In this document: piece by piece, positions 12,873-13,211 of the stretch
How the letters are laid out: each line of letters opens with the position of its first letter
How positions within the stretch are numbered: the stretch's first letter is position 1
Source of the DNA: Nitrospirillum viridazoti CBAmc
Lineage (GTDB): Bacteria; Pseudomonadota; Alphaproteobacteria; Azospirillales; Azospirillaceae
NCBI RefSeq assembly: GCF_000730165.1
Contig: NZ_CP022110.1
Location: forward strand, 62,001 to 126,000
Length of the DNA: 64,000 nt
Reading direction: 5' to 3'
Translations under genes and position numbers: made by a program
Notes under the pieces: model-generated
The model's input: the letters and a program-made list of their open reading frames with translations, nothing else
What the model was told of the DNA's origin: nothing
The model's database searches: none

Positions 12873-13211
12873 ATGAAGCTCGTGGTGGCGGTGTTGAAAC
12901 CGTTCAAGCTGGATGAAGTGCGTGAGGCCTTGGCGGATATGGGGCATCTGGGCGTGACGGTCAGCGAGGTGCGGGGCTGTGGCCGGCAGCAGGGCCGGAC
13001 AGAGATCTACCGGGGGGCGGAATACGCCATGAACTTCCTGCCCAAGGTGAAGATCGAGGTGGCGGTGCCCGACGACCAGATGGAAAGCGTGGTGGAGGCG
13101 ATACAGGCCACGGCCAACACCGGCCGCATCGGCGACGGCAAGATCTTCGTCATGACCATCGCCGACGCGGTGCGCATCCGCACGGGCGAGCGGGGTCAGC
13201 CCGCCTTATGA
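12873..13211 (+). CDS. P-II nitrogen regulatory protein, GlnK/GlnZ-like, with altered T-loop
   Basis: A 112-residue P-II signal protein, the standard family length. It opens [20 protein letters not shown], has the T-loop with uridylylation target Tyr51 (YRGAEY), and the [11 protein letters not shown] signature at 83-93. Arg101 and Arg103 for ATP binding, Lys58 and Glu62 are present. P-II trimers sense ATP/ADP and 2-oxoglutarate and control ammonium transport, NtrB or nitrogenase. Two T-loop residues differ from most members: position 40 is Gln instead of Lys and position 42 is Arg instead of His. In studied P-II proteins Lys40 pairs with Glu62 when 2-oxoglutarate is bound. No amtB follows, which is unusual for GlnK/GlnZ. 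The ATG at 12873 matches the family start. Confidence 0.93.

Follow-up and report, generated by a model that had tools for sequence, protein, structure and literature searches.

The gene at positions 12873..13211 (+) of the window, by which we mean the whole 64,000-nucleotide stretch of Nitrospirillum viridazoti CBAmc DNA analyzed here, raises the question of what the presence of Gln40 and Arg42 in the T-loop of a P-II protein signifies, and whether such a loop marks a new kind of nitrogen sensor or an altered form of an established one. The gene itself is a known one, namely, the GlnZ/GlnK of Nitrospirillum, described from A. amazonense as glnK in a 2011 publication, and its altered loop suggests a variant of a known P-II, that is, a sensor that is specialized and shifted but does not constitute a novel type of system. 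The explanation that we favor, and which we consider fairly probable, is that a GlnZ-type P-II at its ancestral place became specialized with a retuned T-loop after control of AmtB had passed to the glnK2-amtB pair and DraG had been lost as a partner.

Translation of codons 1-112, followed by a stop, gives a P-II protein of 112 amino acids with C36, Q39, Q40, G41, R42, Y51, K58, and E62, and the PF00543 profile matches it with 106.7 bits (cut-off 25) over profile positions 1-102 of 102. The T-loop with its base occupies codons 36-58 (12978..13046, +), within which codon 40 is CAG (12990..12992, +; Gln) and codon 42 is CGG (12996..12998, +; Arg), and GAGGA at 12862..12866 (+), six bases 5' of the ATG and found at 7/7 genus loci, is the likely ribosome-binding site. 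A sequence-only reading had described Gln40 and Arg42 alongside intact nucleotide-site residues and Tyr51, and here translation and alignment agree with it: the nucleotide and 2-oxoglutarate residues K9, Q39, K58, K90, R101, and R103 are all present in the window protein; K9, K58, E62, K90, R101, and R103 are retained in 7/7 genus glnK copies; and Q39, Y51, and K58 are invariant across the 227/227 P-II rows compared. The prerequisites of uridylylation are found in the window genome (7.38 Mb, four contigs), with Tyr51 in GlnK and a GlnD match of 953 bits. Sequencing error at codon 40 was ruled out, as 7/7 genus assemblies carry Q40 (six) or N40 (one), and one genus-mate (G003) encodes a GlnK protein identical to that of the window.

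The 227 rows comprised 7 genus glnK, 7 glnK2, 7 glnB, 22 family glnZ with 1 at class level, 20 family/class glnB (19 family genomes and G049 of the same class), 94 from named genomes, and 69 from the phylum. The named-genome rows came from 80 loci, namely, the best 80 out of 587 hits to window-protein peptides, and the phylum rows were hand-picked from a 150-genome draw among the high-scoring matches listed, the lowest scoring about 112.6 bits as compared with 106.7 bits for the window protein, so that odd P-IIs are under-sampled. Family glnZ was examined in 22 of 28 genomes, leaving out G010, G019, G020, G024, G027, and G031. The repeats L001, L002, L003, L086, L129, and L132 and the partial L130 were dropped before residues were counted; L005 repeats L093, and L006 repeats L117.

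Within this sample, which is biased to close and high-scoring P-IIs, the 220 rows outside genus glnK (201 distinct proteins) have either Lys (218) or Arg (2) at residue 40, as against Gln in 6/7 and Asn in 1/7 of the genus glnK copies, and the same-genome paralogues glnB and glnK2 have K40 in 7/7 each. The two Arg40 proteins, in which the charge is kept, are L029, a Marinomonas record, and L197, from a phylum genome. Gln40 as a common state of GlnK proteins was consequently rejected, being found in 0/220 of the other rows of this biased sample. At the codon level, the three family members shown have AAG, whereas six genus copies use CAG or CAA and the remaining one uses AAC; since CAG and AAC each lie one base from AAG, two separate losses of the residue-40 charge may have taken place in the genus. 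Residue 42 behaves differently from what had been expected, for while the premise of a usually conserved Lys40 stood, that of a usually conserved His42 is true of GlnB-type rows only, GlnZ rows carrying Gln42 (22/22 of the family and the 1 class-level row). His42 as the ancestral state was rejected on these 23/23 rows, and the change is hence Q42R, with Arg42 in 6/7 genus glnK copies and Gln42 in that of G005. As to whether Q40/R42 define a clade, an uncharged residue 40 separates the genus completely in this sample (7/7 versus 0/220), but residue 42 does so only partly. Further changes accompany these two, as C36, M53, and N54 are fixed in 7/7 genus glnK copies, compared with F36, V53, and S54 in the 23 family/class GlnZ rows. 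R85 is found in 7/7 genus copies.

The surroundings of the gene were examined for its origin and are those of glnZ. A ubiH-like gene lies divergently upstream (11215..12558, −; an ORF from its mechanical start), an aat-like aminotransferase gene lies 3' of glnK (13407..14705, +), both named after PMC3111374, and a ftsK-like gene (14856..17582, +) stands after aat, ftsK being named in the Figure 1 legend of the same paper. Beyond the ubiH-like gene, an ORF of 817 amino acids (8651-11104 of the window, −) resembles, by eye, a penicillin-acylase-family protein. The divergent ubiH-like gene was found at 7/7 genus glnK loci and 22/22 family glnZ loci examined, and aat downstream at 7/7 and, within the flanking DNA examined, 17/22, respectively. 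By locus, the window gene can thus be likened to the glnK of A. amazonense, a member of the same genus with the same gene place ubiH-glnK-aat; this order is said in PMC3111374 to resemble those of A. brasilense, Azospirillum sp. B510, and R. centenum, and PMC3169532 lists three P-II genes for A. amazonense: glnB, a glnK that precedes aat, and a glnK2 that follows amtB. The earlier remark that the gene does not adjoin amtB was correct, with both amtB genes of the window genome lying elsewhere (G000:C3:229947-231194, just before glnK2, and G000:C1:2819436) and none beside the genus glnK loci (0/7); however, this absence is no peculiarity but the usual state of family glnZ (0/22), the flanking DNA examined for both sets of loci extending to some 1.5 kb either way in most cases. 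Outside the genus, the highest-scoring relatives are Azospirillum glnZ genes (74%). On the strength of gene order and the upstream element described below, which glnK and family glnZ share, the window glnK is judged to be the in-place orthologue of Azospirillum glnZ.

Sigma-54 promoters follow a consensus with GG at −24, GC at −12, and a fixed spacing between them. The sequence-only reading saw no clear promoter of this kind, and a full consensus is indeed absent, but a scan of the window revealed a conserved near-consensus element, CGGCACGCTTCTTGAA (12772..12787, +), which starts 101 bases before the ATG, has the −24/−12 spacing, and differs from the consensus by two mismatches, the −12 C being replaced by A. 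By itself, this match is no better than chance, its score (own weighting) being reached in 15-22 of 100 shuffles, and sigma-54-like sites are not enriched over the whole window (77 found versus 121 expected). The element is, however, invariant at 7/7 genus loci within diverged DNA, and it is unique in the window genome at ≤1 mismatch. A first pattern, demanding A/T after TTG, placed it at 7/7 genus and 19/22 family loci; two columns that this pattern left open are nearly fixed (C before GG in 26/26, C at the tenth place in 25/26), with low information outside. A second count left the base after TTG open and thereby removed the circularity of the first, and GGCA[CT]-N5-TTG was then found upstream in 30/30 glnZ/glnK loci (7 genus, 22 family, and 1 class). 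The base after TTG, which is the −12 C position, is A/T in 30/30 of these loci and A in 7/7 of the genus, so the GC of the consensus is lacking at −12.

These observations were set against the same core before other P-II genes. Before named-genome P-II genes (best 80 of 587 loci), it stands in 28/94, with C as the next base in 21/29 occurrences, as in the standard −12 GC; elsewhere, it was found in 7/69 phylum rows, 2/20 family/class glnB, and 0/14 genus glnB and glnK2, many of these rows having <330 bases upstream. A near-perfect standard-form site precedes genus glnB (0.95, own weighting). A simple consensus search of 12500-13450 gave no sigma-70-type promoter and no terminator; a putative sigma-70 site was predicted for A. 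amazonense glnK by another matrix, and the promoter fusion of that gene was silent in aerobic M79, as described in PMC3111374. For A. brasilense, PMC7646526 places both glnB and glnZ under Ntr control. The CGGCACGCTTCTTGAA element is best described as a putative, unproven, weak or special sigma-54 promoter, from which glnK would be made under nitrogen limitation.

The search for further P-II genes that the sequence-only reading had proposed yielded two in the window genome, both with ordinary loops, giving three P-IIs in all: glnB (FGRQKGH loop), amtB-linked glnK2 (YGRQKGQ loop), and the window glnK. Each of the 7 genus genomes carries three P-II paralogues, whereas among the 28 other family genomes, two P-II matches are the rule (27 genomes), with a single match in the remaining one. 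Like the window protein, GlnK2 is a GlnK-type P-II of the same genome, but it is 69% identical to it, has the YGRQKGQ loop with Q42 and K85 in 7/7 copies, and is encoded directly after amtB. This adjacency was found in 7/7 genus genomes, although in one case a contig end truncates it. Genome G001 carries, besides its glnK2, a partial glnK2-like fragment at a contig edge (G001:C353:2-187), which perhaps reflects an assembly split or a duplication. In the FastTree tree, glnK2 (L114-L120) clusters with rhizobial and acetobacterial GlnKs, apart from family glnZ (0.927), which suggests that the amtB-glnK2 pair of the genus arose by acquisition or differential loss.

The partners of GlnZ were sought as well. 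According to PMC7646526, A. brasilense GlnZ prefers DraG as its partner, and both P-IIs of that species can bind AmtB. Nitrospirillum differs in this respect, with neither a draT match (0/7 genus genomes; 8/36 searched genomes positive) nor a DraG match over the cut-off (0/7; 3/22 searched genomes positive), although 6/7 show weak DraG-domain matches that fall far short of it; nifH is over the cut-off in 7/7. With DraG absent and AmtB provided with its own P-II in glnK2, the Nitrospirillum glnK would be short of one GlnZ partner while the other is served separately. Loss of DraT as a sufficient cause of the loss of K40 was rejected, as six relatives without a draT match (G007, G008, G009, G014, G017, and G018) keep K40 in ordinary FGRQKGQ loops; G007 keeps it with neither a draT nor a DraG match and with nifH over the cut-off.

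To place the altered residues, the window GlnK was compared with characterized P-II proteins. Its nearest solved relative is A. brasilense GlnZ (PZ; PDB 3mhy and others; phmmer E 2e-49), with which it shares length, ligand residues, Y51, and R85, and from which it differs in having C36, Q40, R42, M53, and N54 instead of F36, K40, Q42, V53, and S54. In structurally studied P-II proteins, Lys40 pairs with Glu62 upon 2-oxoglutarate binding, and if this pairing is right, the E62 kept in 7/7 genus copies stands without its partner. A term search within P-II papers turned up no mention of residue 40 or of a Lys40-Glu62 pair, and a literature search for Nitrospirillum with GlnK found no paper; in PMC3111374, the terms "T-loop," "uridyl," and "lysine" are absent, and the sections on the glnK locus, deletion, and promoter are silent on residues 40 and 42. 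The GlnK of Methanothermococcus, as described in PMC8395244, holds 2-oxoglutarate through the Arg9 and Lys58 side chains together with the backbone at 39 and 41. Of these positions, 39, 41, and 58 are the same in the window GlnK and 9 is Lys, so 2-oxoglutarate binding need not be lost and is likely kept. Position 42 can also matter, given that residues 42 and 85 alter the metal requirement of uridylylation in the R. rubrum P-II, influencing whether GlnD can use Mg in addition to Mn (PMC3480911). These two residues differ between the paralogues GlnJ and GlnB and set their use of Mg or Mn, and Arg42, which the window GlnK has together with R85, does not figure among the variants noted there. Taken together, the substitutions may mean, as the sequence-only reading had supposed, that sensing or target choice of the window GlnK differs.

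Following our favored explanation, glnK2 would have taken over the control of AmtB and the DraG partner would have gone, leaving GlnK free to specialize. The protein would still bind ATP/ADP and 2-oxoglutarate and be uridylylated by GlnD, but with the charge at residue 40 gone, the 2-oxoglutarate-locked conformation of the loop would be less stable. GlnK might in consequence keep its remaining targets at higher 2-oxoglutarate or hold a narrower set of them. Few signal proteins are as conserved as the P-IIs, and the other 220 sampled rows all retain the charge at residue 40; a nitrogen-fixing genus in which one of three P-IIs is without it represents a natural experiment on this residue. Genetic tools have moreover been published for the host genus, as has an in-frame glnK deletion mutant of A. 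amazonense (PMC3111374).

A bolder form of this explanation holds that GlnK has been neofunctionalized, so that it would bind 2-oxoglutarate without releasing its targets and, induced by nitrogen limitation from a deeply conserved non-standard −24/−12 promoter, would regulate nitrogenase or carbon targets at high 2-oxoglutarate; we regard this as improbable. The reverse position is that the loop changed by near-neutral drift in a partly redundant P-II, Gln or Asn at residue 40 working about as well as Lys with 2-oxoglutarate bound via the main chain. Such drift would fit the contacts near residue 40 in Methanothermococcus GlnK, which are main-chain at 39 and 41 with the side chains at 9 and 58 (PMC8395244), and also the occurrence of two different uncharged residues at position 40. 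The rates of change within the genus bear on both sides of the matter. Summed dN/dS (21 pairs each) is 0.081 for glnK, 0.030 for glnK2, and 0.0005 for glnB, and glnK is therefore under purifying selection, yet less constrained than its two paralogues; drift would account for the highest value of the three, but against it stand the constraint that a value of 0.08 still denotes and the fixation of C36, M53, and N54 in 7/7 genus copies. The charge at residue 40 is, moreover, kept in 220/220 other rows, including paralogues from genomes with two or more P-IIs. Drift is rather unlikely in our view, and we prefer the specialization of a GlnZ-type P-II.

Two further alternatives concern the company and the ancestry of the protein. 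P-II paralogues of E. coli form mixed trimers, and given this precedent and the three paralogues in each of the 7 genus genomes, GlnK could be conceived as acting chiefly within mixed trimers, alongside GlnK2 or GlnB, whose response it would detune; we give this little credence, since genus GlnK is only 67-71% identical to GlnK2. Replacement of glnK in place by a horizontally acquired P-II of another alphaproteobacterial group appears even less credible. It would be in keeping with the FastTree tree (95 of 140 rows), in which genus glnK is joined to 13 Sphingomonadales-type rows with a support of 0.846, but gene order and the upstream element are the same as those of family glnZ, and the best-scoring genes outside the genus are those of Azospirillum. 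The genus glnK stem in that tree is 0.31 long, so that long-branch attraction is possible in its placement, and a quick treekit tree, likewise of 95 of 140 rows and made with columns 36, 40, 42, and 54 omitted, did not reject a clade of genus glnK and family glnZ (p-AU 0.336), a value that is no proof of it. Measured from their common ancestor in the FastTree tree, tip distances are 0.466 for genus glnK and 0.162 for family glnZ; 15 other rows below the same ancestor average 0.404, and the speed of glnK alone is thus not special.
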